Source: Bernardetia sp. (GTDB taxonomy: Bacteria > Bacteroidota > Bacteroidia > Cytophagales > Bernardetiaceae). Taken from it: a stretch of 62,102 bases of DNA. Shown here in pieces: positions 21,638 to 51,057 of the stretch. Numbering within the stretch: the first letter of the stretch is position 1; each line of letters opens with the position of its first letter. The position numbers and the translations under genes were made by a program. The stretch spans positions 1 through 62,102 of the forward strand of contig NZ_JAHDIG010000006.1 of the NCBI RefSeq assembly GCF_020630935.1. Reading direction: 5' to 3'. Below the pieces are notes generated by a model. The model was not told where the DNA came from. It searched no databases and saw only the letters and a list, made by a program, of their open reading frames with translations.

Positions 21638-21794
21638 GCCTTAACAATATACAGCAGAAAAATATTATTTTGTTCAATATAACTATAAATCAACAATTTA
21701 TTCCTGCCTAAAAGCAGTTTTTGCATAGAAATTGTTAATTTTAATAACTATTGAACTATCATGTGTTTTGAAACAACTTTTCTATTTTATTACG

Positions 21795-24700
21795 ATGAAA
21801 TTCTTATATAAAAGCAAGCTACTTTTTACTTTGCTTCTTGCCTTCTTATCCTTCTCTGCATATTCTCAAACAGGTCCTGGTGGAGTAGGAACAAATACTG
21901 GTACAGCACCTCTCCAACTTTGGCTTCGTGCTAATGCTATCACACCAGCTCCAGCAGATGGAACAGCAACAAACTTTACAGATGCTTCTGGGCATGGTCG
22001 CACTGCTGCTAATTCAAATGGAGTTGGCGATGGAGTACGTGGTCTGTATCAATCTAGTATAGCAAATACATTTCCTGTAGTTCGTTTTAATGGACTCAAT
22101 ACTACAGCTGGCTCTCAATATGATGATGCTTATTCTTATAATGCACGCACAGTTTTTGCCGTATATCGTACCTCTTCTACTACACAAGTCAATACTGATT
22201 TAGGTCAGATTTGGGGAGACTATAATCCATCACAAGTTCAAATAGCTTTAGATGCTCGTACAGGAGGAAATAACAGAGGGTTTAGTTTTGATGGAGCTGG
22301 CGCAGCAAGGGCAAGGTACGGAATAAATGCTGCAAACTTTACTGGATTTGCTGCAAATACTAATACTCAACAATGGACATATAATCAGTTTGAAGTGCTT
22401 TCTGTGGAGTTTGAAAATACACAAGCTATGACTAATCAGCGTATCAGTACTCTTGCAAGTAATTTTACTATTGACCACAGGTTTGGAGGTGATATAGCAG
22501 AAATTATTGTATATGATAGAGTTTTGAATCCAGCTGAAAGAATTGTAGTAGAAAACTATTTATCTGCTAAATATAATGTTACACTTACACAAAATGATTT
22601 TTACTCACACGATGCTGCTACTGCACAGCCTTACTTTCATAATGTTATTGGTGTAGGAAAAACAACAGGAACAAATGTACACCTAACATCTGCATCATCC
22701 CTATTAGAAATAAATGCAGTCAGCACCATTAGTAATAACTCTTATCTTTTTGCAGGACACAATAATGCTTCTTCAGCAAGCTATACAACTACAAATTCAG
22801 TTACAGGTTATGAGCGTATTCCAAGAACGTGGCGACTAGACAGAACTGGTACTATTGGTACAGTAAATTTTAGAGTAGATGTCTCCCAACTACCTGGAGG
22901 GGTAGGTTGTCAGTTAGCTATCTTTACAGATGGAGATGGAGATTTTACTACTGGAGCTACTGTAACTAATCTTACTCAAGTAGGTACATCTTCTATCTAT
23001 CAAGCGAGTGTAGCTGTAAATGACAATGAATTTCTCACAATAGGACAAGCCTTAGGCTCTGCCATAACACTTACAGCAACTCCTACAGGTATATCAGGAG
23101 AAGTAAATCTAAACTGGAACAATCCAGGATTAGCTAATTTTCAAGAGTATAGAGTGTATGGAGGACAAACTAATAATCCTACAACTTTATTAGCTACTAT
23201 TACAGACCCAACAACAATTTCTACTACAATTACTGGGCTTACAAATTGTAGATTATATTATTTTAGGTTAGTACCTGTTACGCTGACAGATAACGAGTCT
23301 CCTTGTGAGGGTAGCGACACAGCTATTCCTTCTAATGGTATTGCTCCTGCTGTGATGAACCTCACAGGAGCTGCTCCAGTTACTTTACCCTCCCCAAATG
23401 GACGTGTTACACTCACATTTGATGCTAGTGGAGACCCTGAAATAAGAGAAATAAGGGTATATACTTATAGAGATGGAGATCCTGTTCCAGCTACTGCAAC
23501 TCTTGTAGCCACAACTGGTATAAATGCATCTACTACATCAGTAGTAGTTCCAGGCTTGTTTCCCTCACCACCAGCCACTTGTTTTAGAATTACACAAGTG
23601 AATGCCTGTGGTATAGAAAGTCCTATATCTGGGGAACAATGTGCCAGTATTACTGTGCCACCAGAAGATTGTAATAATAGTATAGATGATGATGAGGATG
23701 GTAGTATTGATGATGGAGATATAGATTGTAATGATTGTGTTTTTCAAATTACAGACCCAGGAGAATTTCAGCTTTTCCAATTTAAAGTTATTCCAGTAAA
23801 TGGAAATAATATTGGTTATCAGACTCCTATTTTTGGAGATGTAGATAATGATGGAGAAAGGGAAATAGTTGTTTTAGGAGATAATGGTATTATTAGTGTT
23901 TTGAATCCAAGAAATGATGGGAATCCAGATGTAGAATATGAGCAATCTGGACTTCTTACTCCTGATGGAGCAACAAGTCTTTTAACTATGGCAAATGTGG
24001 ATGGAGATCCTTACATAGAATTCTTTTATGTATTGAGTGGTGCTAATAACCCTTTGGCTTGTTATCAATATAACTATACCATACCAGCGTTTGAATTGGA
24101 ATGGAGAACAGATGATGCTACGATAAACCCAGTAGCAGCTAGAAGAGTTGCTAATACTGACCGTGCAAACACTAACTTGACTGATTTCAATGAAGATGGA
24201 ATACCAGAAGTTTATACAGGAGGAACTATCTTTAATGCTCAAACAGGACAATGGTTAGGGTATGTAGGAGCAGGTAACCCAGATGGAGACCCTAGAGATA
24301 CAGGAGCTCCTATATTTCAAATTTCAAATGCTGCTGATGTGCTGCCAGATGCTTTTTGTACAGATTGTGCAGGGTTAGAATTATTGGCAGGAAACACAGT
24401 GTATTCTGTAAATATTGCAACCAATACAATAACTCCTGTTGCAGTAGCTCCAGTTCCACTTACAGGAGGTTTTGTAGATGCAGTAATGTCAGTTGCAGAT
24501 ATGGACAATGATGGAGATATTGATGCAGTTGTCTCAGGATATGGTAGAATTTATGTTTGGGATATTCAAACAAGCGCACTACTTTCTAATGTCTTTGATT
24601 TGAGAAGTTATAATGCTGGAGTTTTTATAAATGGTGTAGAAGGAGTTGGAGGAACTAGTCCTTATTCTGGTATTCCAACAATTAATGATTTTGATAATGA

Positions 24701-26213
24701 TGGAAGAAATGAATTTGGAGTAACTAAAGAACGTGGTGTAGTAATGTTTAATGATGTAGATACAGCAGCCATAAATGGAGGTAATCTACAACCTATGTGG
24801 ACACTACCAACTACAGATAACTCTGGAACTACTGGACTTTCTTCGTTTGATTTTCTAGGAAATGGTTTTGCTAACCTTGTATATCGTGATGAAACAAAAG
24901 TACGAGTTTTTCAAGGAGCTAGTGGTGATGTCTATTTTGATTCAGATGTTTCTGGTTTTCCTGCTTGTAATAGTGGTACAGGAATGGAAATCCCTACAAT
25001 TGGTGATGTAAACGACGATGGACAAACTGAAATCATAGCTTCCTGTAATGGAAGGGTAATAATTTACCAGTCTTCTAATATTCCTTGGTTGCCTTCTCGT
25101 GATTTATGGAATCAAGTAAATTATAATATTACAAATATCAATGGTGACTTGACAATCCCTGCTGTTATTTCTCCTCAAAACTTTGAAACTGTTGCACCTC
25201 CATTGAATAACTATATGGCACAGCGTCCACTTAGTAATTCTACTGATCCATTCATTCCTTCTGCTGATATTGTAGCTTTAGTAGATGTAGATGATGGTGC
25301 TATTGATTTAGGTAACTGTCCAGCCGAAGTTACTTTTACAATAGACATAGAAAATCAAGGAGATGCTGATGTAGTAGTGCAATATCCGATTACTTTCTAT
25401 AGTGAAAATCCTCAAGGTGCTTCTTGGTCAAACCTCAGTACTTTTGCCATAAATGATGGACTCGCTGTTGGAGAACAAAGGGAATACACATATTCTTTTC
25501 CTCTTACAAGTGACCCTGCTAATGTGTATGTAGTACTCAATGATGCTGGAACAAGTACACCAGGTGCACCTATTGTATTACCTAATACTTCGGTGGCAGA
25601 ATGTGAATACAATAATAATTTTTTAGGGCCTTATACCATTTCTAGTTGTTTTGACCCACTGCCTGTGGAATTATTAAGATTTGTAGGAAAAGATGAAAGT
25701 GACAAAGTACGATTAGACTGGGCGACAGCTTCAGAGCGAGATAACGCTTATTTTGAAGTGCAACGTAGTCAAGACGGAGAGAAGTTTGTAACGATTGATG
25801 TTATTCAAGGCAAAACATTTTCCAATCAAGTAACAGAATATCAAACCTATGATTATGAAGACTGGACAGGAGTGATGTATTATAGATTGAAGCAAGTAGA
25901 TATAGATGAAACCCAAACTCTAAGCAACACAATCGTATTTAGAAGAGATAAGGATTTAGAAATAAAAATATATCCAAATCCAGTTTCTTCTGGACAAAAC
26001 TTAAATATTGAAGGCTTGAGTGGAGAATGGAATGCTATTTTATACGATATGGCAGGAAGAAGCATTAAAAACTGGATAATTAGTTTTGATAGACAAACTT
26101 ATACCACTCCGTTTCCAAATCTAAGAAAAGGAATGTACATCATTCAGTTAGAGCCTCTTTCAAGCAATAATAGCGAAAAAGGTAGAGTCGTAGAAAAAAT
26201 TGTAGTAGAGTAA
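21795..26213 (+). CDS. Giant secreted T9SS cargo with LamG-, Fn3- and FG-GAP-like regions
   Basis: The 1472-residue protein begins with a signal peptide (MKFLYKSKLLFTLLLAFLSF); ATG 21795 is chosen over an upstream TTG. Its regions, in order, are: a concanavalin/LamG-like domain (about 25-290; PLQLWLRAN, ending in IAEIIVYDRVLNPAERI); a region typical of Bacteroidota gliding or adhesion proteins with TWRLDRTGTIG; two fibronectin-like segments (about 430-640); an Asp-rich Ca-binding segment (NNSIDDDEDGSIDDGDIDCN); FG-GAP/VCBS-like repeats (about 670-1130; FGDVDNDGERE, MDNDGDIDAVVSGYG); a CARDB-like domain; and a type A T9SS sorting domain (about 1395-1472; IYPNPVSSG.. GMYIIQLEP). The sorting domain directs export and surface anchoring. 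A surface adhesin role is inferred. Confidence 0.92.
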   Translation: MKFLYKSKLLFTLLLAFLSFSAYSQTGPGGVGTNTGTAPLQLWLRANAITPAPADGTATNFTDASGHGRTAANSNGVGDGVRGLYQSSIANTFPVVRFNGLNTTAGSQYDDAYSYNARTVFAVYRTSSTTQVNTDLGQIWGDYNPSQVQIALDARTGGNNRGFSFDGAGAARARYGINAANFTGFAANTNTQQWTYNQFEVLSVEFENTQAMTNQRISTLASNFTIDHRFGGDIAEIIVYDRVLNPAERIVVENYLSAKYNVTLTQNDFYSHDAATAQPYFHNVIGVGKTTGTNVHLTSASSLLEINAVSTISNNSYLFAGHNNASSASYTTTNSVTGYERIPRTWRLDRTGTIGTVNFRVDVSQLPGGVGCQLAIFTDGDGDFTTGATVTNLTQVGTSSIYQASVAVNDNEFLTIGQALGSAITLTATPTGISGEVNLNWNNPGLANFQEYRVYGGQTNNPTTLLATITDPTTISTTITGLTNCRLYYFRLVPVTLTDNESPCEGSDTAIPSNGIAPAVMNLTGAAPVTLPSPNGRVTLTFDASGDPEIREIRVYTYRDGDPVPATATLVATTGINASTTSVVVPGLFPSPPATCFRITQVNACGIESPISGEQCASITVPPEDCNNSIDDDEDGSIDDGDIDCNDCVFQITDPGEFQLFQFKVIPVNGNNIGYQTPIFGDVDNDGEREIVVLGDNGIISVLNPRNDGNPDVEYEQSGLLTPDGATSLLTMANVDGDPYIEFFYVLSGANNPLACYQYNYTIPAFELEWRTDDATINPVAARRVANTDRANTNLTDFNEDGIPEVYTGGTIFNAQTGQWLGYVGAGNPDGDPRDTGAPIFQISNAADVLPDAFCTDCAGLELLAGNTVYSVNIATNTITPVAVAPVPLTGGFVDAVMSVADMDNDGDIDAVVSGYGRIYVWDIQTSALLSNVFDLRSYNAGVFINGVEGVGGTSPYSGIPTINDFDNDGRNEFGVTKERGVVMFNDVDTAAINGGNLQPMWTLPTTDNSGTTGLSSFDFLGNGFANLVYRDETKVRVFQGASGDVYFDSDVSGFPACNSGTGMEIPTIGDVNDDGQTEIIASCNGRVIIYQSSNIPWLPSRDLWNQVNYNITNINGDLTIPAVISPQNFETVAPPLNNYMAQRPLSNSTDPFIPSADIVALVDVDDGAIDLGNCPAEVTFTIDIENQGDADVVVQYPITFYSENPQGASWSNLSTFAINDGLAVGEQREYTYSFPLTSDPANVYVVLNDAGTSTPGAPIVLPNTSVAECEYNNNFLGPYTISSCFDPLPVELLRFVGKDESDKVRLDWATASERDNAYFEVQRSQDGEKFVTIDVIQGKTFSNQVTEYQTYDYEDWTGVMYYRLKQVDIDETQTLSNTIVFRRDKDLEIKIYPNPVSSGQNLNIEGLSGEWNAILYDMAGRSIKNWIISFDRQTYTTPFPNLRKGMYIIQLEPLSSNNSEKGRVVEKIVVE

Positions 26214-31798: not shown

Positions 31799-32878
31799 TT
31801 AGTCTCTCTCTTTCAACCACTCCGAAACTTTAGGCGCAAGTTCTTTCTGTGAACGTCCACCTACAAAAACGCCAATGTGTCCACCTGGAAACTCATACAA
31901 GGTTTTATCTTTTGTTCCTACGTGGTCGTTTAATGGTTTGGTAGCAGAAGGGGGTACTAAGTGGTCAGCAGAGGCATAAATTGTCAAGACTGGATTTTTG
32001 ATGTCTTGTAGATTTACTTTTTTTCCTCCTAGTTCAAATTCTCCTTTAATAAGTTTATTTTCTTGGTATAAATCTTTAATAAATTTACGATAACATTCTC
32101 CAGCTTGCGAAGGACTGTCGCCTACCCATTGTTCCATTCTGAGGAAGTTCATCAGTTTGGCTTTATCTTCCATAATATTTGTAATGGTTGCCATTTTCTT
32201 GAACTTGCTAAGAGGCTTCAACATATCAAAACCCATATTCAAAAACTCACCTGGTACGAGTCCGTCGTTTCCATCTACTACTTTATCTACATCCAAATCT
32301 CTTGACCACTTGAAAAGTAATCCGTCGTCGGTGTTAAAGTCAAATGGAGCAACCAGTGTAATTAGGTTTTTGATTTTGTCTTGATTGAGAGCTGTATAAA
32401 TTGTGGAAAATGTACCACCTTGGCAGACGCCTAATAAGTTGATTTTATCAATACCATGTTCTTTTCGGATAAAATTAACACAAGAATTGATGTAGCCATT
32501 GATGTAATCTTCCATTGTCAAATATCTATCTACACGAGAAGGATAGCCCCAATCTATGAGATAAATATCTATTCCATTGTCTAGCAAATTTCTGATAAAA
32601 CTACGGTCGGCTTGCAAGTCCATCATATCAAAACGATTGACAAGTGCGTATGAAATGAGAAGTGGAGTTTTGAGGCTACGTTTTTTAGATGCATAACGGT
32701 ATAGTTTCACTTTGTCTTCACTCCAAACAATTTCTTTTTCTGCTGTAGCAACATCTACTTCTTCTACATCACTCAAAAGTTGGTAGCCTTTTACAAGTTT
32801 TTCAGTTTGTTCTGTAATTTCTTTTGTAAAGCTCTCATACACGTTAGTTTGTATGTTTTCATGCTTAGGATTTGCCAT
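31799..32878 (-). CDS. phaC: Class III polyhydroxyalkanoate synthase catalytic subunit
   Basis: The 359-residue alpha/beta hydrolase matches class III PhaC in length and motifs. The lipase-like box is GVCQGG with nucleophile Cys152, followed by catalytic Asp305 (YASADHLVPP) and His334 (PGGHIGVFVG). The YLIDWGYPS and EQWVGDSPSQAG stretches are also typical. It polymerises (R)-3-hydroxyacyl-CoA into storage granules. ATG 32878 (MANPKHENIQ) is preferred over a start at 32995, because the extra residues lie in the palindrome region and look non-coding. Its partner phaE is upstream on the same strand, about 290 bases away with an intervening terminator. No phaA or phaB is in view. Confidence 0.95.
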   Translation of the reverse strand: MANPKHENIQTNVYESFTKEITEQTEKLVKGYQLLSDVEEVDVATAEKEIVWSEDKVKLYRYASKKRSLKTPLLISYALVNRFDMMDLQADRSFIRNLLDNGIDIYLIDWGYPSRVDRYLTMEDYINGYINSCVNFIRKEHGIDKINLLGVCQGGTFSTIYTALNQDKIKNLITLVAPFDFNTDDGLLFKWSRDLDVDKVVDGNDGLVPGEFLNMGFDMLKPLSKFKKMATITNIMEDKAKLMNFLRMEQWVGDSPSQAGECYRKFIKDLYQENKLIKGEFELGGKKVNLQDIKNPVLTIYASADHLVPPSATKPLNDHVGTKDKTLYEFPGGHIGVFVGGRSQKELAPKVSEWLKERD

Positions 32879-32895
32879 AATTTTTTTAGTTTGTG

Positions 32896-33013
32896 TGTAG
32901 CACACTCTATTAGAATTAGAATGTGATGATTTGTAACTCAATAAATTCTTTGTTCTAAACGACAGCTTTAGTATTCGTTTATGGTTGTTTCGCATTCTAA
33001 AGAATGCGCTACA
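32896..33013. repeat. Inverted pair of TGTAG-head hairpins upstream of phaC (REPIN-like)
   Basis: The left unit (32896-32925, plus) has a TGTAG head and arms CACACTCTA/TAGAATGTG (one mismatch). The right unit (32991-33013, minus) has a TGTAG head and arms GCATTCT/AGAATGC. The heads face outward, with about 65 bases between. It lies immediately upstream of the phaC start. Confidence 0.75.
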
Positions 33014-33028
33014 TTTTTGTTTTTATCA

Positions 33029-33062
33029 AAAACCCCAACTTCAACGTTGAAGTTAGGGTTTT
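33029..33062 (-). terminator. Terminator of phaE
   Basis: The 16-bp nearly perfect arms (AAAACCC-AACTTCAA and complement, one mismatch, 2-base centre) end in T-rich sequence on the minus strand. It lies 108 bases past the phaE stop, so phaC probably needs its own promoter or read-through. Confidence 0.82.
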
Positions 33063-33169
33063 GCGTTGAAGGAAATGTTAGATTTCTTTCGCTTATTATT
33101 TCTAATAAGCACGTTTTAGATAACTACTCCAATCTAAAACGAATTTGATTTTGACTATCTACTCAAAAA

Positions 33170-34627
33170 CTATTTTGTAGTTTTTTTGCTGGCAGTCGTT
33201 GTTTTTTTAGTAGCTGTTACTGTTTTGGCTGGGGTTGCCTTAGCTACTGGCTTTGCTTCTGCACTATTTTCTAGCTCACGAACACGAGCTTTTAGTGCGT
33301 GTACTTGTTTTGCTAACTCATCGATTTCAGAGTTGAGAACTACTGGATAAGGAGAAAGCACTTGTTCCATTCCTTTATTGAAATTGGTTTTCAAATCTAA
33401 TTGAAGAGCCAAAATCTCACCTTGTAGTTTAGAAAACTCATCACCTTTAAAGATAGTAATCATTTGGTCTTCCAATGTATTGAGCCAGTCCATATAAAAT
33501 TCATTGTATGTACTTACTTTTCCGTCTTTGGCAGCCTCAAACATTTTAGTCATAAACTCCTCAGCAGTTTCTTTTACTGTCTTACCAATGATAGCATTCA
33601 TATCTGCTGTTTTCATTTGGTAGTCTAGCAAAATTGCCTGCATTTGAGAGAAAAGTTTAATCGTTTCCTTTTCTTTGCTTGGTGGCATTAATTTATAAAA
33701 CGGAGCATACATTTTTTGCATGCGCTCATATATTTCTTTGCCAAAGGTTGGACTCATGACGTTTTCCATAGAAAAATTTTCTAGGTTCATCATTTTTGCC
33801 ATATCTGTTGGCATCATAGAAGAGAATTTTTCAAAAGTATCTTTATAAGGTGCAAACATAGGGTTTTGCATCATCGTATTACGATACTGCTCTACCATTT
33901 TGTTCATTTGCTCGTTCATCTGACTGAAATTAGCAAAGCCAAACTGTGAAGGATTTTGAGAGAACATGTTTTTTGCCATCTCTTGCAATTTGTCCATATT
34001 CATCATTTTGAAGTATTCTTGTACATCAAAATTTTTGTTGTTGGTCATATTTACAAATGGCTTCCACATTTCGTACGCATCAAAATACGTCTTTGCTCCT
34101 TTTGTCATGTTTTCAAAGGCTTCTTGCATCGGTTGCATAGATTTGAAAACAGGGTTTTCAGTCATCATTTTTTTGCTCTCGTTCATCATCTCAGTTGTTG
34201 AATCTAACCAAGTTTTGTAAGAGCTAGTCATCATTTCTTGCATTTTGGCTGCATTTTCTTGCAAGTTGAGGCTGTTCTGACCATTTGTGTTAGTCATTTT
34301 TACCATTTGCATCTGACGGTCTGCCATTTCACTCATTGTGTCAATCCACTTTTTAGAAAGTGTTGTTTGCTGTTCCATAAGCTGACTTACTTGTGTTGGC
34401 ATAGTTTCAGAAGAAATTTCTTTGCCTTTCTCCATTGCTTCAGAAATGATATTTTTCTGATTGTCGTACCAATTTTTATACATATCCGTAGCTTGCTCCA
34501 TTACTTTGCCTTCTTTGGCAGCTTCTTGAAGCTGACGAGTAGAATCTACCCAGTTTTCCACGACTTTATTTTGAGTAGTTGCCCAAAAATCTAACATTTC
34601 CTTCGCAGAATCCATTACGTTTGTCAT
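33170..34627 (-). CDS. phaE: PHA synthase subunit PhaE, extended phasin-like form
   Basis: The 485-residue helical protein resembles PhaE, the partner that class III PhaC requires. The PhaE-like core covers roughly residues 180-450 (MNAIIGKTVKETAEEFMTKM, YNEFYMDWLNTLEDQM, FSKLQGEILALQLDLK) and ends in the typical LAKQVHALKARVRELE coiled coil. The N-terminal 150 residues are Met/Gln-rich with a repeated Trp motif (NWVDSTRQL, NWYDNQKNI, KWIDTMSEM, TWLDSTTEM), which looks phasin-like and may coat the granule. The last 30 residues are Lys/Thr/Ala-rich (KTVTATKKTTTASKKTTK), like the DNA-binding tails of some granule proteins. Known PhaE proteins are usually about 350 residues. ATG 34627 follows a good promoter. 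Confidence 0.85.
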   Translation of the reverse strand: MTNVMDSAKEMLDFWATTQNKVVENWVDSTRQLQEAAKEGKVMEQATDMYKNWYDNQKNIISEAMEKGKEISSETMPTQVSQLMEQQTTLSKKWIDTMSEMADRQMQMVKMTNTNGQNSLNLQENAAKMQEMMTSSYKTWLDSTTEMMNESKKMMTENPVFKSMQPMQEAFENMTKGAKTYFDAYEMWKPFVNMTNNKNFDVQEYFKMMNMDKLQEMAKNMFSQNPSQFGFANFSQMNEQMNKMVEQYRNTMMQNPMFAPYKDTFEKFSSMMPTDMAKMMNLENFSMENVMSPTFGKEIYERMQKMYAPFYKLMPPSKEKETIKLFSQMQAILLDYQMKTADMNAIIGKTVKETAEEFMTKMFEAAKDGKVSTYNEFYMDWLNTLEDQMITIFKGDEFSKLQGEILALQLDLKTNFNKGMEQVLSPYPVVLNSEIDELAKQVHALKARVRELENSAEAKPVAKATPAKTVTATKKTTTASKKTTK

Positions 34628-35235: not shown

Positions 35236-37428
35236 TTGAAGACACTTTATCTTACAAAAAAACTATTCTTCTATTTTGGGAAGTTATGTTTATCAGCTAC
35301 TATAGCTGTCTTATTGTTATGTTCTTCAGAATTATCTCTAGCTCAATCTTTACCTTCTATTTTATTAGAAGATAAGAATCAAGAGTATATTATCACCAAT
35401 AAACTGGGAGTATATGAAGAAGTTATAAGTGATACAATTAAGAAAGAGACTATAGAAATTATTCAAAGTAAAAATTTTAAAGTATTTGAAAAAGACATCC
35501 TTAGTATCAATAGTGGAAAACATATTTTATGGGTAAAGATTCCATTTCAAAATAACTCTGAATTAGAGAAGTGGTATTTAGAAATAGGAAATGGATTAGC
35601 TGATATTGATATTTTTATTCCACAAAACAAAGAAGAAAAGTCATCTATTGATTTTGAAAAGACCTCTATGGGTTTTTCATTGCCATTTGATAAGAGGTTT
35701 ATTAAAACAAATGTATTTTTAATTCCAATTAAACTACCTAAAAATGAAGTAACAACTATCTATTTACGAATAGAAAGTGACTATTTTCAAGCACCTTTTC
35801 GTATAGCTCCTGTAGAATATTATTTGGAGCGTAACCATAAAATAGATTTAGCAGAAGGTATTTATTATGGTTTTGCAATTGTGATGGTGCTTTATAACTT
35901 ATTTATTTTTTTTACACTCAAAGAAAAAAGTTATCTATACTATTTGAGTTATTTGTTATTTCTTGCACTAGCTATGGCTCAATTAAGAGGACATTTTTTT
36001 GAGTTTTTAGTATTTGACCTACCTATTATGAATCGCTATGTTCCTATGATTCATTCCTTATCGGGAATTTTTGCAAGCTTATTTCTCATTGACTTTTTAA
36101 ATACAAAGAAAAATTCTCACTTTTTTCATACTACTTTACATATTGTAATAAGTATTTTTTCACTAGCTTTAATAGTAAGCCTATTAGGTTTTAAACCTAT
36201 AGCATCATTAATTAATCAAATAATAGCAGGACTATCTACTATAAACGCTTTAGCTGCTGCTATTTTTATTTATTACATAGGTTACAAACCTGCCAAATAT
36301 ATTATTGTAGGATGGTCTTTTTATTTGATAGGAGTGCTTCTATTTGTGCTGGCAGGAGCTGAAATAATTCCTTATAACTCTTTTACCTCAAATGGAGTGT
36401 TATTTGGTTCTGCAATTGAAATGATACTACTTTCTGTGGCATTGGCAGCTAAAATTGATTTTTATAAAAAAGGAAAAGAAGAGCTACAAGGTAAAATGTT
36501 AGAGCTTATAGAAAATGAGAATAAAAGGTTAGAAAAGCGAGTAAATGAACGCACAGAAGAACTGAATGTTGTGAATGAGGAACTTTCCATAAACTTAGAA
36601 CGCCTAAATGAGCAACACTTATTAATTGAGAAAAAAAATCAGGATATTACCTCTAGTATAACATATGCTAAGAGAATACAAGATGCAATGTTGCCTAGCT
36701 TAGAAGAAATTAGAAAATGTTTACCTAATTCTTTCATACTTTTTAAGCCAAAAGATATTGTATCAGGAGATTTTTATTATTTCAAACAAGTACATCAGAA
36801 AATCATTATTGGTGTGATTGATTGCACAGGGCATGGCGTACCAGGAGCTTTTATGTCTTTAATTGGAAATGACCTTTTAAATGAAATTGTAGAGCTAAAA
36901 TCTGTAACTAAGGCATCTCATATCTTAGATAGACTTAATCAAGGTGTTGTTAAGGCACTTCGCCAAACAGATACACAAGTCAGAGATGGAATGGATGCAG
37001 CCATTTGTGTTTATGATATAGAAACTCAAATATTAGAATATGCTGGAGCTAAAAATCCGATGATATATGTACAGAATGGAGAACTAAAAGTGATAAAAGC
37101 AGACAGGCAATCTATTGGAGGTAGTCTCATTAAAAATGAATTTAATAAAAAACCTTTCACAACACATACGATTCATCTTAAAGACAATCAAGATACAATA
37201 TTCTATCTATTTTCAGATGGTTTTCAAGACCAATTTGGAGGAGAAAATGATAAAAAATTTACAATAAAAAGATTTAGAAATACATTATTAGAAGCTTCAA
37301 AATTACCTCTAAATCAGCAAAAAGAATTTCTACATACTATACTCTTAGATTGGATGAATGAAGAAACTCAGCAAATTGATGATATTTTGGTCGTTGGCTT
37401 CAACTGTTTGAAAACAATAAAAAAATAA
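35236..37428 (+). CDS. 7TMR-DISM receptor with SpoIIE phosphatase domain, paralogue 1
   Basis: The 730-residue membrane protein has a signal peptide, an extracytoplasmic 7TMR-DISMED2-like domain (about 40-195), seven helices of the 7TMR-DISM type (about 205-400), a coiled coil (about 410-475, ERVNERTEELN type) and a PP2C-type SpoIIE phosphatase (about 480-725). Phosphatase metal-site motifs are VSGDFYYF, DCTGHGVPGAFMS, RDGMDAA and FSDGFQDQFGG. It would sense an outside ligand and dephosphorylate a Ser/Thr-phosphorylated partner, perhaps an anti-sigma antagonist. The only start is TTG at 35236 (MKTLYLTKK); no ATG precedes the signal segment. It heads a tandem of three paralogues. Confidence 0.9.
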   Translation: MKTLYLTKKLFFYFGKLCLSATIAVLLLCSSELSLAQSLPSILLEDKNQEYIITNKLGVYEEVISDTIKKETIEIIQSKNFKVFEKDILSINSGKHILWVKIPFQNNSELEKWYLEIGNGLADIDIFIPQNKEEKSSIDFEKTSMGFSLPFDKRFIKTNVFLIPIKLPKNEVTTIYLRIESDYFQAPFRIAPVEYYLERNHKIDLAEGIYYGFAIVMVLYNLFIFFTLKEKSYLYYLSYLLFLALAMAQLRGHFFEFLVFDLPIMNRYVPMIHSLSGIFASLFLIDFLNTKKNSHFFHTTLHIVISIFSLALIVSLLGFKPIASLINQIIAGLSTINALAAAIFIYYIGYKPAKYIIVGWSFYLIGVLLFVLAGAEIIPYNSFTSNGVLFGSAIEMILLSVALAAKIDFYKKGKEELQGKMLELIENENKRLEKRVNERTEELNVVNEELSINLERLNEQHLLIEKKNQDITSSITYAKRIQDAMLPSLEEIRKCLPNSFILFKPKDIVSGDFYYFKQVHQKIIIGVIDCTGHGVPGAFMSLIGNDLLNEIVELKSVTKASHILDRLNQGVVKALRQTDTQVRDGMDAAICVYDIETQILEYAGAKNPMIYVQNGELKVIKADRQSIGGSLIKNEFNKKPFTTHTIHLKDNQDTIFYLFSDGFQDQFGGENDKKFTIKRFRNTLLEASKLPLNQQKEFLHTILLDWMNEETQQIDDILVVGFNCLKTIKK

Positions 37429-37478
37429 AATATTTGGTAACTTAGCTTATAGCTAAACTATTAATTACTATTAGGCTT

Positions 37479-39671
37479 TTGAAAAACATTTACTTTAAAA
37501 ATAATACAAGTGCAATTTCAAATATCAGCAGTAAGTTTTTTACTGTTATTGTTTTTCTGATGGTTTTATTTTTTATAAATTTTGTATTTGCACAACCTGT
37601 TCCAAGTATTTTATTAGAAGATGTCAATAAAGAGTATGTTATCACAAATCAGCTTGGACTTTATGAGGAAGTAATCAAAGAAGAGTTACTTCAAGAAAAT
37701 ATACAAACTATCCAAAAGGCAAATTTTTCAGTAAGAGGAAAAGATATTGTTACTCTTAATAGTGGGAATCATGTAATGTGGGTTAAGATTCCAGTACAAA
37801 ATAATACGGATAGGGTAAGGTGGTATTTAGAAATTGGTAATGGACTTGCTGATATTGAGGCATTTATATCAAAGAAAGAAAACCCTAATGAGTTTGAAAA
37901 ATTAACATTTGGCTATTCTTTACCATTTTCAGAGCGTATTATACAAACAGATAGATTTTTAATACCTTTTGATGTTTCAAAAAATAATAAGAGTACAATA
38001 TATTTACGAATAGAAAGTGACTATTTTCAAGCACCTTTTCGAATAGCTCCACTAGAATATTATTTTGAAAGAGACCATAAAGTAGATTTATCAGAAGGTA
38101 TTTATTATGGTTTTGTAATTGTAATGGCTCTCTACAACCTATTTATTTTTTTTACTGTAAGAGAAAAAGGGTATTTATTTTATGTTTTCTACTTAATATC
38201 TCTTGGTTTAGCTATGGCACAACTGAGAGGACATTTATTTGAATTTATTTTCTTTGCAACTCCCACTCTCAACAGATATGTTCCTATTATACATTCTTTT
38301 GTTGGAATATTTGCTAGTTTGTTTCTGATAAACTTTTTGCATACCAAAAAGAACTCTCGTGTATTTCATATAATACTACACATCGTAATCATTATATTTT
38401 GTTTGAATTTAGTAATAGGATTATTAGGTTTTAAACCTATTGCATCTGCAATCAATCAAGTGGTGGCAGGACTTTCTTCTATCAATGCTTTAGTGGCTGC
38501 TATTTACATTTATTACAAAGGTTATAAGCCTGCAAAATTTATTATTTTAGCATGGTCATTTTATCTTTTAGGAGTAGTTGTATTTGTTCTTGCTGGGGCA
38601 GATATTATACCTTACAATACTTTTAACTCTAGTGCAATGCTTTGGGGATCTGCTATCGAAATGATTTTGCTCTCTGTAGCTTTAGCTGCAAAAATAGAAT
38701 ATTATAAAAAAGATAGAGAAGCTTTACAAGTTAAAATGTTGGAAGATTCTGAAAAACACAGAGAGTTTGTAGAAACACAAAATAAGCGATTAGAGCAACG
38801 AGTTAATGAACGCACAGAAGAACTAAATGTAGTAAATGAAGAGCTTTCCGTTAATCTTGAACGTCTACATGAACAAAACGTGATTATTGAGAAAAAAAAT
38901 CATGACATAACAGCAAGTATCAATTATGCAAAGCGTATACAAAATGCAATGCTTCCTACTATTGAAGAGATAAAAAGTGTTTTGCCTAAATCTTTTATTT
39001 TCTTTGAACCAAGAGATATTGTAAGTGGGGATTTTTATTATTTTAAAGAAATACACAACAAAATCATTATTGGAGCAATAGATTGTACTGGACATGGTGT
39101 ACCAGGAGCTTTTATGTCCTTGATTGGAAATGATTTACTAAATGAGATTGTTGAATCAAAATCTGTTACTCAAGCATCACATATTTTGGACAAATTAGAT
39201 GAAGGAGTTACGAAAGTCTTAAGACAAACCAATACGCAAATTCGTGATGGAATGGATGCTGCTTTTTGCGTTTATGATACAAAAACAAAACAGATAGAAT
39301 ATGCAGGAGCGAGAAATCCTCTCATCTATATAAAAGATGAAGAACTTAAAGTAATTAGAGCTGATAGGCAGTCTGTTGGGGGAAATCTTGTTAAGAACCA
39401 AATTACGAAGAAGCTATTTACTAATCATGTTTTCAATTTTTTACCAAATACTACTTTTTATTTATTCTCAGATGGATTTCAAGACCAATTTGGAGGAAAA
39501 GATGATAGAAAGTTTACAGTTAAAAGGTTTAGAAATATGTTATTAGAGGCATCCAAACTACCTTTTTCAGAACAAGAACAGTTTTTAAATGACACATTAA
39601 AAAATTGGAAAGGATATAATAATAGGCAAATCGATGATATATTAGTGTTTGGATTTAATTTCTCTCAATAA
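37479..39671 (+). CDS. 7TMR-DISM receptor with SpoIIE phosphatase domain, paralogue 2
   Basis: Same length (730) and architecture as the gene 50 bases upstream: signal peptide, DISMED2-like domain, seven helices, coiled coil, SpoIIE phosphatase (DIVSGDFYYFKE, DCTGHGVPGAFMS, RDGMDAAFCVYD, FSDGFQDQFGG). It also opens at TTG (MKNIYFKNN). The extracytoplasmic domain is closest to paralogue 1 (SILLEDVNKEYVITNQLGLY), and a stretch of about 40 bases near 38001-38041 is identical to 35761-35801. The coiled coil instead has the EKHREFVETQNKRLE insertion shared with paralogue 3. This mosaic pattern suggests duplication followed by gene conversion. All catalytic motifs are intact. Confidence 0.9.
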   Translation: MKNIYFKNNTSAISNISSKFFTVIVFLMVLFFINFVFAQPVPSILLEDVNKEYVITNQLGLYEEVIKEELLQENIQTIQKANFSVRGKDIVTLNSGNHVMWVKIPVQNNTDRVRWYLEIGNGLADIEAFISKKENPNEFEKLTFGYSLPFSERIIQTDRFLIPFDVSKNNKSTIYLRIESDYFQAPFRIAPLEYYFERDHKVDLSEGIYYGFVIVMALYNLFIFFTVREKGYLFYVFYLISLGLAMAQLRGHLFEFIFFATPTLNRYVPIIHSFVGIFASLFLINFLHTKKNSRVFHIILHIVIIIFCLNLVIGLLGFKPIASAINQVVAGLSSINALVAAIYIYYKGYKPAKFIILAWSFYLLGVVVFVLAGADIIPYNTFNSSAMLWGSAIEMILLSVALAAKIEYYKKDREALQVKMLEDSEKHREFVETQNKRLEQRVNERTEELNVVNEELSVNLERLHEQNVIIEKKNHDITASINYAKRIQNAMLPTIEEIKSVLPKSFIFFEPRDIVSGDFYYFKEIHNKIIIGAIDCTGHGVPGAFMSLIGNDLLNEIVESKSVTQASHILDKLDEGVTKVLRQTNTQIRDGMDAAFCVYDTKTKQIEYAGARNPLIYIKDEELKVIRADRQSVGGNLVKNQITKKLFTNHVFNFLPNTTFYLFSDGFQDQFGGKDDRKFTVKRFRNMLLEASKLPFSEQEQFLNDTLKNWKGYNNRQIDDILVFGFNFSQ

Positions 39672-39759
39672 TCTTCAAAAACAAGCAAAGTATGTATTTT
39701 TTTTAGTAATTTAGTTTTCCATAAAGAGATCTTGAGTTATTATTTTTAATTATCTACTA

Positions 39760-41946
39760 TTGAGAGGTTTTTATTCCAATTTTAGTTTAAATTTTATTCC
39801 TTTTATAAATAAAAACCATATTGTCATTGTGTTGGTGACAACTATTTTTTTATGCCTTCCTTATTCTATTCTAGCTCAATCTATTTCTTTTATTAGCTTA
39901 GATAAAAAACAAGATTACTCAATAGCTAATCGAATTGGAATTTATAGAGCCGACAAAGAAAAAAAAGAAACCATAGAAAGTATACAAGAAATTGATTTTG
40001 TAACTGAACCAAATAAGTTTATCAATATTAATGGAGCAACACAAAAAATTTGGCTCAAAATTCCTTTAAAAAATAAAACAAATTTAAAAGACTGGTACTT
40101 GGAAGTTGGAAGTGGAAGGGCAAACGTAGAAGTTTTTATTCCAAATTCAGATAATAGCTATAAAAAAATTGAACTTGGTTATGGTAAGCCATTTAGTGAA
40201 AGAATTTTACAGACAGACCGTTTTATTATCCCACTTGAAATAGATGAAAATGAAGAAATAATGCTTTTTGTCAGTATAGAAAGTAATTACTTTCAAGGAC
40301 CGATTCATGTTGCCCCTTGGGAATATTACTTTGAAAGAGACCATAAAGTAGATCTAGCAGAAGGAATGTATTATGGTTTTATCTTGGTAATGTTGTTATA
40401 TAATCTTTTCCTTTATTTTACATTAAGAGAAAAAGGCTACCTCTACTACATTATTTACTTACTTACCTTAGGCTTGGGAATCGCACAGATAAGAGGACAT
40501 AGCTTTGAATTTTTGTGGGGAAATCAACCTTGGGTAAATGATTATGATCCTATTATTTATGCTGTCTCTAGTATTTTTGCAAATCTGTTTTTTATGGATT
40601 TTCTTCATACCAAACGACACGCTATAGTCTTTCATCGTATTTTACAAGCACTAATAGGAATTTTTGTTATTATTATTATTATCGTTCTTTTTGGTCATAA
40701 GGCTTTGGGGTCGTCAATTAACCAAGTACTTCTTGGGTTTTCCTGCCTTAATGGACTAGCTACTGCTCTCTACATTTATTACAAAGGCTACAAGCCAGCT
40801 AAGTATATTATAGTAGCTTGGACATCTTATTTAGCAGGGTTATTTATTTTCGTGTTAGCAGGAGCAGGAATTATAGTCTATAATGATTTTACTTCAAGTG
40901 GACTTTTACTTGGCTCTGCTATTGAAGTGGTAGTTTTGTCTGTTGCTTTAGCAGCCAAAATAGATTTTTATAAGAAAAAGCAAGCAGAATTGCAGGCTCA
41001 AATGCTCAAATCTTCTGAAGAACACCGTGAGTTTGTAGAAACTCAAAACAAGAGATTAGAAGAGCGAGTAGCCGAACGAACAGAAGAACTAAATGTAGTG
41101 AATGAAGAACTTTCTGTCAATTTAGAACGTCTCAACGAACAAAATATCACAATAGCCAAGAAAAATCAAGACATAACAGCTAGTATCAATTATGCTAAAC
41201 GCATACAAGATGCCATGCTACCAACGCTTGAAGAAATCAAGACAGGTTTTCCTAATTCATTTGTGTTTTTTGAACCAAGAGATATTGTAAGTGGAGATTT
41301 TTATTTCTATAGACAAATCAACAATAAAATTATTATTGGAGCTATTGACTGTACTGGACACGGTGTTCCAGGAGCTTTTATGTCATTGATTGGAAATGAC
41401 CTCTTAAATGAAATTGTAGAATCCAAATCAGTAACAAAAGTCTCTCATATTTTAGACAGGTTAGATAAAGGCATTACAAAAGTGCTTCGCCAAACCGATA
41501 CACAAATCCGTGACGGAATGGATGTTGCTTTTTGTGTTTATGATACCCAAACAGGGGAAATAGAATATGCAGGAGCTAGAAATCCACTCATTTATATAGA
41601 AGGTGAGGAACTAAAAGTGATAAAGGCTGATAGACAATCCATTGGAGGCAGCCTTATAAAAAATCAGTTCCATAAACAAGAATTTACTACACACAACATC
41701 AAGTTAAAAGAAAATACTAACTATTCATTTTACCTCTTTACAGACGGATATCAAGACCAGTTTGGAGGTGGAAATGATAAAAAGTTTACTACCAAAAGAC
41801 TTAGAAACACTTTGTTAGAAACATCAAAGCTACCTTTTTCAGAACAAGAAGACTTTTTAAGACAGACATTGAAAGACTGGATGGGCTACACTAACAAACA
41901 GATAGACGACATACTTATAGTCGGCTTTGAACCAAATAGAAAATAA
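39760..41946 (+). CDS. 7TMR-DISM receptor with SpoIIE phosphatase domain, paralogue 3
   Basis: The 728-residue third copy lies 88 bases after paralogue 2. The membrane, coiled-coil and phosphatase regions are close to the other two (VSGDFYFYRQ, DCTGHGVPGAFMS, RDGMDVAFCVYD, FTDGYQDQFGG). The extracytoplasmic sensor domain is the most divergent of the three (SISFISLDKKQDYSIANRIG), which suggests a different ligand. It opens at TTG (MRGFYSNFS), aligned with the TTG starts of the other copies. The next gene, an SDR, starts 13 bases after its stop and may be co-transcribed. No kinase, anti-sigma factor or STAS-domain target is adjacent, so the phosphatase substrate must be encoded elsewhere. Confidence 0.9.
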   Translation: MRGFYSNFSLNFIPFINKNHIVIVLVTTIFLCLPYSILAQSISFISLDKKQDYSIANRIGIYRADKEKKETIESIQEIDFVTEPNKFININGATQKIWLKIPLKNKTNLKDWYLEVGSGRANVEVFIPNSDNSYKKIELGYGKPFSERILQTDRFIIPLEIDENEEIMLFVSIESNYFQGPIHVAPWEYYFERDHKVDLAEGMYYGFILVMLLYNLFLYFTLREKGYLYYIIYLLTLGLGIAQIRGHSFEFLWGNQPWVNDYDPIIYAVSSIFANLFFMDFLHTKRHAIVFHRILQALIGIFVIIIIIVLFGHKALGSSINQVLLGFSCLNGLATALYIYYKGYKPAKYIIVAWTSYLAGLFIFVLAGAGIIVYNDFTSSGLLLGSAIEVVVLSVALAAKIDFYKKKQAELQAQMLKSSEEHREFVETQNKRLEERVAERTEELNVVNEELSVNLERLNEQNITIAKKNQDITASINYAKRIQDAMLPTLEEIKTGFPNSFVFFEPRDIVSGDFYFYRQINNKIIIGAIDCTGHGVPGAFMSLIGNDLLNEIVESKSVTKVSHILDRLDKGITKVLRQTDTQIRDGMDVAFCVYDTQTGEIEYAGARNPLIYIEGEELKVIKADRQSIGGSLIKNQFHKQEFTTHNIKLKENTNYSFYLFTDGYQDQFGGGNDKKFTTKRLRNTLLETSKLPFSEQEDFLRQTLKDWMGYTNKQIDDILIVGFEPNRK

Positions 41947-41959
41947 CACACACAATACA

Positions 41960-42754
41960 ATGCTTTTAGACTTAACTGGAAAAATTGCTCTTGTAGCAGG
42001 AAGTACACAAGGAATTGGACTTGCAACAGCCAAACAATTTGCTCAAAGTGGCGCAACTCTAATCCTTCTAGCACGAAGTGAAGAAAAATTAAAAAACATT
42101 GTTTCAGAACTTCCCACGCCTCAAAATCAGAACCATAGCTATTTAGTAGCAGATTTTTCTTCTCCCAATACACTACAAGATGCCTTGAGTGAAGCTCAAA
42201 AAAATAAAGGTTTTGAAGGCGCACATATTTTGATAAACAATACTGGAGGACCTCCACCCAACAAAGCGCATGAAGCTTCTTTACAATCGTTTAGAGATGC
42301 TTTTGAGCAACATCTTATCTGCAATCAGATTTTAGTACAAGCACTTTTGCCTTTTATGAAAAAGGAGAAGTTTGGCAGAATAATAAATGTGATTTCTACC
42401 AGTGTCAAACAACCGATTGAGAACTTAGGGGTTTCTAATACTATTCGTGCTGCCGTAGCAAATTGGGCAAAAACTCTTTCTTTCGAACTAGCTCAACATG
42501 GGATTACTGTAAATAATGTATTACCTGGTATGACCTCAACAGCAAGACTAGATGCTATTATCAAGAATAAAGCAAAAAATGCTAATATTTCAGAAGATGA
42601 AGCTATTCATCAATTAAAATCGACTATTCCAGCCTACCGTTTCGCAGAACCAGAAGAGACTGCCAATGCAATTTTATTTTTAGCTTCGGAAAAAGCAAGT
42701 TACATAAATGGTATAAATCTTCCTGTTGATGGAGGTAGAACAAAAAATCTATAA
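41960..42754 (+). CDS. Atypical SDR oxidoreductase (NNTGGP type)
   Basis: The 264-residue short-chain dehydrogenase-like protein starts at ATG 41960; a TTG at 41927 would overlap the upstream gene. It binds NAD(P) through GSTQGIGLATAKQ, has the NNTGGPPPN loop in place of the usual NNAG, and ends with FLASEKASYINGINLPVDGG. The catalytic Tyr-x-x-x-Lys is missing: after ISTSVKQPIENLG the sequence reads VSNTIRAAVANWAK, so Tyr is replaced and an Arg lies near the Lys position. This is a recognised subgroup of 3-oxoacyl-ACP-reductase-like proteins of uncertain activity. It closes the receptor cluster and is followed by a strong terminator. Confidence 0.88.
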   Translation: MLLDLTGKIALVAGSTQGIGLATAKQFAQSGATLILLARSEEKLKNIVSELPTPQNQNHSYLVADFSSPNTLQDALSEAQKNKGFEGAHILINNTGGPPPNKAHEASLQSFRDAFEQHLICNQILVQALLPFMKKEKFGRIINVISTSVKQPIENLGVSNTIRAAVANWAKTLSFELAQHGITVNNVLPGMTSTARLDAIIKNKAKNANISEDEAIHQLKSTIPAYRFAEPEETANAILFLASEKASYINGINLPVDGGRTKNL

Positions 42755-42780: not shown

Positions 42781-42813
42781 AAAAAGGCTGTTCCCATTTG
42801 GGAACAGCTTTTT
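42781..42813 (+). terminator. Terminator of the receptor-SDR cluster
   Basis: The arms AAAAAG-CTGTTCCC/GGGAACAGCTTTTT (14 bp with one bulged G, 4-base loop) form the strongest hairpin in the window. It lies 27 bases after the SDR stop. Confidence 0.92.
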
Positions 42814-50292: not shown

Positions 50293-51057
50293 TTATTTCA
50301 GTATTTTATTCCATTGTCTTTCATCTAGTTCAATGGCTTCCATTTTTATATGTGAAAGATTATTACTCATCTTGAAAATATCATTGAACCATTCTTTTGT
50401 GTCTTCATCATCGTCTAAACAATACCATGTCCATAAAGAAGTTTTACCTGTCTTTTCTGACCAACTAGATAAAGCTGTGGCTGTTTCTACAAGACGAATC
50501 ATATTAGACGTGGCGATATAATCTATTTTAAAATAAGAATGAATTTGGTCTATATCACTTTGAAATAATTTCTCAAGCCAGCAAAAGAATGGATGCATGA
50601 AGTATAGCGAGTAAGAATTATACATTTCTTGTGATATTTCTACTACGCCTGTCTCAAAATTTCCTTTTATTTTAGGAAATCTTCCTGAAGCATAATTTCC
50701 CACACCCCATTTACCTTCAATTAGAAAATTAAAATTAGGAATGGTCTTAATAATTTCTGTCAATGGATTTGTGATATTTTCCATGAAAGGCAAAGGCTTT
50801 TTGATAATGAAATTCTCTTCTCTAGGTTCTGTAAAAGGTAAAGAATCTAAAACGTCTATAAGCTCAATAGTTAGTATTTCTTCGTTATTTTGTAAATAGC
50901 CTTCTAGCCATTCTTCAAAGGGAAGCAATTCTTCTGCTGTGAAACAGTTTGCCCAGTTTGAAATAATGATTTTTTTCTGTTTTGCACTTGCAAGAATACT
51001 TGCTCTTAATCCATTATTATTTGCCTTGCTTTCTATCTTTATATCTCTAATTTTCAT
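50293..51057 (-). CDS. Unknown protein overlapping the 51047 gene
   Basis: The 254-residue protein starts with an ATG overlapping the stop of the upstream gene by 11 bases, so the two are translationally coupled. There is no signal peptide or membrane segment. The sequence has mixed strands and helices (KKIIISNWANCF, EEWLEGYLQNNEEILTIELIDVLDSL) and many Trp, Phe and acidic residues in the C-terminal half (TSLWTWYCLDDDEDTKEWF). I do not recognise a family. The upstream partner is a secreted or barrel-like protein, so the pair spans the envelope and cytoplasm. Function is unknown. Confidence 0.7.
   Translation of the reverse strand: MKIRDIKIESKANNNGLRASILASAKQKKIIISNWANCFTAEELLPFEEWLEGYLQNNEEILTIELIDVLDSLPFTEPREENFIIKKPLPFMENITNPLTEIIKTIPNFNFLIEGKWGVGNYASGRFPKIKGNFETGVVEISQEMYNSYSLYFMHPFFCWLEKLFQSDIDQIHSYFKIDYIATSNMIRLVETATALSSWSEKTGKTSLWTWYCLDDDEDTKEWFNDIFKMSNNLSHIKMEAIELDERQWNKILK

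Follow-up and report, generated by a model that had tools for sequence, protein, structure and literature searches.

In Pseudomonas, the kinase SiaB phosphorylates SiaC at Thr68, the phosphatase SiaA removes this phosphate, and SiaC in its unphosphorylated form switches on the cyclase SiaD, as described in two reports (PMC7647112, PMC8457831). Noting how widespread the SiaC domain (DUF1987) is, one of these reports suggests that proteins carrying it commonly modulate neighboring proteins (PMC8457831); because of this earlier suggestion, the idea that SiaC has some different output from SiaD already has a precedent. Related phosphatases with the SpoIIE-like fold have expanded in Streptomyces, with 46 reported for S. 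coelicolor (PMC2887360). Here, we describe a 62,102-nt stretch of DNA from Bernardetia sp. (contig NZ_JAHDIG010000006.1; hereafter, the window), which carries an array of three tandem genes (35236-41946) that each join a 7TMR-DISM sensor to a phosphatase of this fold. The array genes are genuine and well preserved, and as a triplet they are ordinary. Counting these three, the genome holds about 75 such genes, which may feed a handful of shared switches related to those of Pseudomonas biofilm control; the interest lies in the large phosphatase network that the array samples, not in the triplet itself.

All three genes lie on the plus strand and encode proteins of a single architecture: copy 1 (35236-37428, 730 amino acids [aa]), identified from the open reading frame (ORF) list, Pfam, a Protein Data Bank (PDB) sequence match, and a structure model; copy 2 (37479-39671, 730 aa), from the ORF list and Pfam; and copy 3 (39760-41946, 728 aa), which has the most divergent sensor. 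A sequence-only reading had described three full-length tandem paralogs, and the ORFs and Pfam bear this out. In copy 1, a signal peptide recognized by eye is followed by a DISMED2 domain (aa 62-189), a 7TMR-DISM domain (205-405), a coiled coil (about 406-478), and a SiaA-like PP2C domain (about 479-723). Each copy passes the Pfam cut-offs for 7TMR-DISMED2, 7TMR-DISM_7TM, and SpoIIE, and each retains complete GD, D-C-T-G-H-G, DG, and final DD motifs; the loss of catalytic residues that the same reading had named as evidence against itself was not seen. A structure model of copy 1 places a beta-rich domain (about 42-192), seven membrane helices, a long coiled coil, and the PP2C domain in that order, and with a mean predicted local distance difference test (pLDDT) score of 68, an alignment of 10 sequences, and a coiled coil mostly below 50, it supports domain order only. 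The 404-aa sensor part has no match among PDB sequences at E values up to 1. As in described 7TMR-DISM receptors (PF07695 with PF07696), both domains stand N-terminal to an intracellular signaling domain; the array departs from them in that this output is a SiaA-like phosphatase. We found no paper naming both "7TMR-DISM" and "SpoIIE" in the open-licence PubMed Central literature. Homologs of the array genes were found at four named loci: one in Bernardetia sp. MAG-102 (77% identity), one in a metagenome-assembled genome (MAG) of an uncultured member of the Cytophagales (69%), and two in Flexibacter sp. CG_4_10 (62% and 58%).

By both sequence and fold, the phosphatase of copy 1 is nearer to SiaA than to SpoIIE, RsbU, RsbX, or RssB. 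Searched against PDB sequences at E values up to 1, it matched the SiaA PP2C domain (6k4e) at 5.9e-33 and otherwise two RssB entries (0.33 and 0.74). In the one control run, a 716-aa RsbU-like outlier from the same genome matched SpoIIE and RssB at 5e-9 to 3e-8 and SiaA at 7e-6. Fold comparison of the copy 1 model likewise ranked SiaA first (E 5.3e-16; template modeling score 0.84, normalized by target) and RssB next (2e-9). SiaA is the nearest solved PP2C relative of the array phosphatase, and the two share the catalytic motifs and the DQ that follows the catalytic DG. The array differs from the SiaABCD system of P. aeruginosa (PMC7647112, PMC8457831) in its 7TMR-DISM/DISMED2 sensor, in the absence of an adjoining siaB or siaC, in the sheer number of such phosphatases, and in the lack of a GGDEF-containing SiaD.

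The array is a small part of a much larger inventory. Across the 4.75-Mb draft genome, the SpoIIE model gave 76 matches in 75 ORFs. The metal-binding acidic residues of PPM phosphatases (GD, D, and DG) are present in 75/75 domains and the final DD in 73/75, array copies included; one of the two domains lacking it is cut by a contig end. Among the 75, a 1324-aa phosphatase ORF (C48, L051:1739-5710) ends without the final DD and is perhaps truncated or frameshifted. The C-T-G-H-G/DQ signature marks 73 of the 75 domains, and these 73 form one group that excludes two long-branched RsbU-like outliers (C15 and C54), with a Shimodaira-Hasegawa-like approximate likelihood ratio (SH-aLRT) support of 100, in trees built with FastTree and a quick IQ-TREE run, of which many inner branches are weak. 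Partner profiles detected 7 SiaC proteins, in all 7 of which a Thr aligns with the Thr68 phosphosite, and 6 SiaB-like proteins (DUF6272). Five SiaB-SiaC pairs were found: two in the order phosphatase-SiaB-SiaC (C2 and C9) and three others (C49, C51, and C53). The remaining SiaB follows a phosphatase gene (C16). No GGDEF domain, the domain of SiaD, was matched anywhere in the genome by a search that was positive in 8 of 14 control genomes, and on this ground we rejected a diguanylate cyclase as the SiaC-controlled protein here. Around C2 (L087:1532-12474), a 1106-aa ATP-binding cassette transporter fusion follows the phosphatase-SiaB-SiaC row and GAF, CheB, and CheR genes precede it, all candidate SiaC targets; the C9 row (L073:3259-8700) adjoins a squalene/phytoene-synthase-like gene and an opposite-strand gene of the sigma-70 family (resembling the extracytoplasmic function type).

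We favor, somewhat above even odds, a scheme in which many sensors feed a small SiaB/SiaC switch with a target unrelated to cyclic di-GMP (c-di-GMP). In this scheme, the periplasmic DISMED2 domain and the seven-helix region would sense ligands, probably different ones for each copy, and the signal would pass through the coiled coil to switch the cytoplasmic SiaA-like PP2C phosphatase. The phosphatase would strip phosphate from SiaC-family proteins phosphorylated by SiaB-family kinases; removal of phosphate from the Thr68 equivalent by the array enzymes is putative. Dephosphorylated SiaC would then represent the summed output of many sensors, with the array as a small part of a fan-in network of 73 phosphatases bearing differing sensors, 6 SiaB, and 7 SiaC, and the SiaC target would probably be something other than a diguanylate cyclase. 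Over time, copy number at the locus may change and sensors diverge, while gene conversion or recombination mixes output domains between copies, perhaps under selection for a shared output. The sequence-only reading had proposed a combinatorial sensing array, which is too local a description for 3 of 75 genes at a locus holding one to three copies in relatives. If the network scheme is correct, 73 receptors of one phosphatase group face about 13 candidate partners in one genome; how many inputs a single SiaB/SiaC switch sums, and what SiaC binds without a diguanylate cyclase, become testable, and the array, with natural one-, two-, and three-copy relatives, offers a small experimental handle on the network.

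A survey of a sample of 291 genomes from the order Cytophagales places this genome in context. Phosphatases number from 0 to about 176 per genome, where counts above about 10 are first-look candidates whose agreement with a full count was established for this genome alone. SiaB occurs in 127 genomes and SiaC in 130; 126 have both, so that all but one of the SiaB genomes also have SiaC. Every genome with at least 11 phosphatases (69/69) has SiaB, and none of the 164 without SiaB exceeds 9. Phosphatase number tracks SiaB with a Spearman coefficient of 0.86 over genomes and 0.84 over the medians of 21 families. GGDEF was found in 5 of the 291 genomes and, among the 126 in which SiaB and SiaC occur together, in a single one (125 lack it). 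This genome ranks eighth by phosphatase number and is no outlier, and all 11 genomes of its family, its own included, have 48-82 matches to copy 1. It is conceivable, though we hold the idea tentatively, that a phosphatase-led sensory network operates in a large part of the Cytophagales: receptors by the tens, some in the membrane and others soluble, would share dephosphorylation as their input step and act on few SiaB/SiaC switches with a non-c-di-GMP target, their sensors being swapped and tandem copies being kept output-compatible by gene conversion. In the open-licence PubMed Central literature, which leaves most subscription papers outside, we found no account of a Cytophagales phosphatase expansion or of SiaB/SiaC without GGDEF.

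Judging from the protein sequences, sensor domains are swapped onto phosphatases across this genome. Pfam finds 7TMR-DISM_7TM in 21 of the 75 proteins (12/38 plus 9/37), and among the 40 most alike of 2709 phosphatase pairs, several that are 52-57% identical carry sensors sharing no similarity at E 1e-3. Mapped onto the phosphatase tree, the DISM label requires at least 15 changes, compared with a mean of 17.9 for shuffled labels, and well-supported branches force at least 4. DISM is the only label used in this analysis (20 proteins by a custom profile, 21 by Pfam). A custom propeller profile was dropped as a second label, having recovered 8 proteins where Pfam finds Reg_prop in 20, as was a BLAST single-linkage grouping of sensors that merged 50 of them.

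At the array itself, identity to copy 1 is 67% for copy 2 and 60% for copy 3. The most divergent sensor is that of copy 3, as the sequence-only reading had noted: extracytoplasmic amino-acid identity is 0.61 between copies 1 and 2, compared with 0.40 (1/3) and 0.39 (2/3). The corresponding values are 0.73, 0.59, and 0.59 for the seven-helix region and 0.70, 0.71, and 0.75 for the phosphatase. We compared the locus with those of six relatives in the genus (G001-G006; G000 is the genome of the window) and with a genome outside it (G007). Between phaE and a short-chain dehydrogenase (SDR) gene, one copy is present in G001 and three in G000, G003, and G004. Next to the SDR gene, there is one copy in G005 and two in G006, with different genes upstream in both. 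G002 has three copies on separate contigs, only one of them adjoining the SDR gene; the second lies in a 19-kb stretch without other genes of the window locus and may be located elsewhere, and the contig of the third spans 3.7 kb. The SDR gene adjoins an array copy in 6/6 relatives, and none of the array's neighbors stands beside the best match in G007. The sequence-only reading would have been weakened by relatives with a single copy and no sensor divergence; single copies do occur in two of the six (G001 and G005), but unaccompanied by the second half of that combination.

Comparison of sensor and phosphatase phylogenies, an analysis that the sequence-only reading had proposed, revealed discordant groupings in the relatives. 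Sensor trees unite the copy-3 type of five genomes (support 100/100), a clade that phosphatase DNA rejects (p 0.002) and phosphatase protein rejects as well (p 0.028); the identical G006 rows were left free in this test. A second sensor clade, comprising G003_c2, G004_c2, and G001_a (100/99), is rejected by phosphatase DNA (p 0.005), and synonymous differences between G003_c2 and G001_a are lower in the sensor (0.29 and 0.35) than in the phosphatase (0.51). The two G006 copies are identical over a 962-nt tract that begins inside the coiled coil and ends one base short of the stop codon; their nucleotide identity is 63% in the extracytoplasmic region and 69% in the seven-helix region, and sensor data reject joining them (p 6e-5 for protein, 9e-23 for DNA). 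Parts of one gene in the relatives thus support different trees, the mosaic pattern associated with gene conversion. These trees give good support to partly independent histories of sensor and phosphatase, with mixing in relatives, and the discordance looks like gene conversion. For the window's own copies 2 and 3, domain mixing is only suggested: in the DNA tree, the copy 2 sensor pairs with that of copy 1 (85/82) and sensor DNA rejects joining copies 2 and 3 (p 1.2e-4), whereas the phosphatase DNA tree joins them (81/98), a pairing specified only after inspection of the tree. The earlier proposal that ligands differ while output is shared gains partial support from the relatives, whose sensors split by type as their phosphatases group differently; a common substrate for the copies is putative.

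Several observations weigh against the network scheme. In a published simulation, SiaA contacts SiaC via F612 and R652 (PMC7647112), and the array copies have neither: read along the PDB-search alignment of copy 1 with SiaA, F612 aligns with K, R, and K and R652 with I, I, and I in copies 1-3. The phosphatase of the C2 row has R and I at these places, as the window copies do, and the phosphatases near SiaB at C9, C16, and C49 keep Arg at the R652 place, so that the window copies resemble one of four. These residues neither firmly support nor exclude SiaC as a substrate, but they do argue against the array enzymes being plain copies of SiaA. The curated NCBIfam SiaA model scores 187, 201, and 197 bits for copies 1-3, far below its cut-off of 700, with only the C-terminal part aligning; among the 38 of 75 phosphatase proteins on which it was run, it also matches an RsbU-like outlier, so a match is not in itself diagnostic. 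The array has no SiaB nearby. At C13 (L093:2181-8848), two SiaA-group phosphatase genes flank a STAS gene, a possible case of a STAS substrate. The link between phosphatase and SiaB counts is an association rather than proof, since neither the genomes nor the families are independent of one another, and it may stem from common descent. On the phosphatase tree, the DISM label shows mild clustering, with 18 of 500 shuffles as low. As for the mosaic history, the phosphatase protein tree does not join copies 2 and 3, phosphatase protein does not reject the clade of G003_c2, G004_c2, and G001_a (p 0.154), and the longest conversion tract, that of 962 nt, comes from one MAG (G006) and may be an assembly artifact.

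As the F612 equivalent, we considered and rejected the residue following the catalytic DG (F, F, and Y in copies 1-3), because F612 lies further on. Across the 73 SiaA-group phosphatases, the R652 place, which is the Ile before the final DD in the window copies, holds R in 25, I in 24, T in 14, V in 7, L in 1, and a gap in 2; this split may mark substrate classes.

An alternative is that each copy serves an insulated pathway with a private substrate, the output not being common to the three. Their phosphatases are only 70-75% identical, with synonymous differences of 0.69-0.75, and PPM phosphatases can be highly specific via three variable loops (PMC11418112). We nevertheless regard private pathways as unlikely: no candidate substrate gene adjoins any copy, 73 phosphatases of the group stand against 7 SiaC, and the apparent exchange of output domains in relatives would scramble private specificity.

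We also give little credence to an RsbU-like system, in which the substrates of the phosphatases would be STAS anti-anti-sigma proteins bound by RsbW-like kinases, and a sigma factor would be released as a result. Pfam does call the domain SpoIIE, and the array shares the PPM fold and a large lineage expansion with RsbU/SpoIIE phosphatases and their Streptomyces relatives. Searching the rest of the genome for STAS and HATPase proteins, as the sequence-only reading had advised, returned 4 STAS matches, 3 of them small proteins, and 7 HATPase_c_2 matches, 2 of them strong and RsbW-like, including one STAS-HATPase pair (C32); the C13 arrangement and the missing SiaC-contact residues would also suit such a system. 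However, the array phosphatase is of another subtype, nearest SiaA by sequence and fold, and the separate RsbU-like phosphatases C15 and C54 are better candidates to serve the STAS/RsbW pair. STAS and RsbW proteins are few beside 75 phosphatases (STAS_2, PF13466, was not searched for), and no match to STAS (PF01740) or HATPase_c_2 (PF13581) accompanies the array in the window under that same limit. The STAS/RsbW partner implied by the sequence-only reading thus fits less well than SiaB/SiaC, with 2 RsbW-like and 3 small STAS proteins set against 6 SiaB and 7 SiaC.

That the copies are near-redundant duplicates with similar ligands, kept by dosage or drift, is improbable as well: copy number at the locus does vary in the genus, and divergence times are uncontrolled, with synonymous sites near saturation in most copy comparisons, but five genomes share the copy-3 sensor type, and extracytoplasmic nonsynonymous differences are 0.24-0.36 among window copies versus 0.16-0.23 between like copies of different genomes (9 comparisons; the range omits three close G003/G004 pairs and G003_c2/G001_a, which are lower still).

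A SiaC-domain protein is encoded elsewhere in the window (50293-51057, minus strand). This 254-aa protein matches the SiaC profile at its C terminus (aa 126-233) and retains a Thr at the aligned position of the SiaC phosphosite; by eye, its N-terminal half resembles a worn second SiaC domain. The claim that no cognate partner lies nearby accordingly needs amending for this protein, and it stands for the kinase and STAS classes, as SiaB (DUF6272), HATPase_c_2, and STAS (PF01740) had no match in the window (STAS_2 excepted from the search). We considered and rejected the SiaC protein as the array's dedicated partner. Among the 11 family genomes, it is full-length only in G000, G003, G004, and G005, and it is on a different contig from the array in G003, whereas in G004 and G005 the distance between them exceeds 300 kb. 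It is probably not a dedicated partner, and its nearness looks accidental. Its 28 PDB matches were nearly all designed Armadillo repeats, taken as chance, and included no SiaC structure.

The SDR gene downstream of the array (41961-42754, plus strand) is listed among the ORFs with a TTG start at 41927; we propose the ATG at 41961, which places its start 14 nt past the copy 3 stop. The gaps between array copies are 50 nt (copies 1-2) and 88 nt (copies 2-3). A consensus scan, which is not proof, identified a 14-pair terminator-like hairpin with a T tail 3' of the SDR gene (42782-42813, plus strand) and listed none between the array copies. Because of the short gaps and the placement of this hairpin, the three copies and the SDR gene, as its possible last member, may form one operon.

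The array genes appear to start at TTG (35236, 37479, and 39760), with no ATG upstream of the hydrophobic core of the signal peptide. A TTG occurs at about the same site in 15 of 16 genus homologs, G002_c having ATG, and in two homologs a later ATG might be used as well. Directly upstream of the array, on the minus strand, lies a class III polyhydroxyalkanoate synthase pair (31799-34627; PhaC/PhaE-like by Pfam), which is kept upstream in G001, G003, and G004 and is separated from the array by other genes in G005. Farther away in the window, 21732-26213 encodes a 1493-aa protein in which Pfam finds FG-GAP repeats and, at the C terminus, a secretion sorting domain (Por_Secre_tail).

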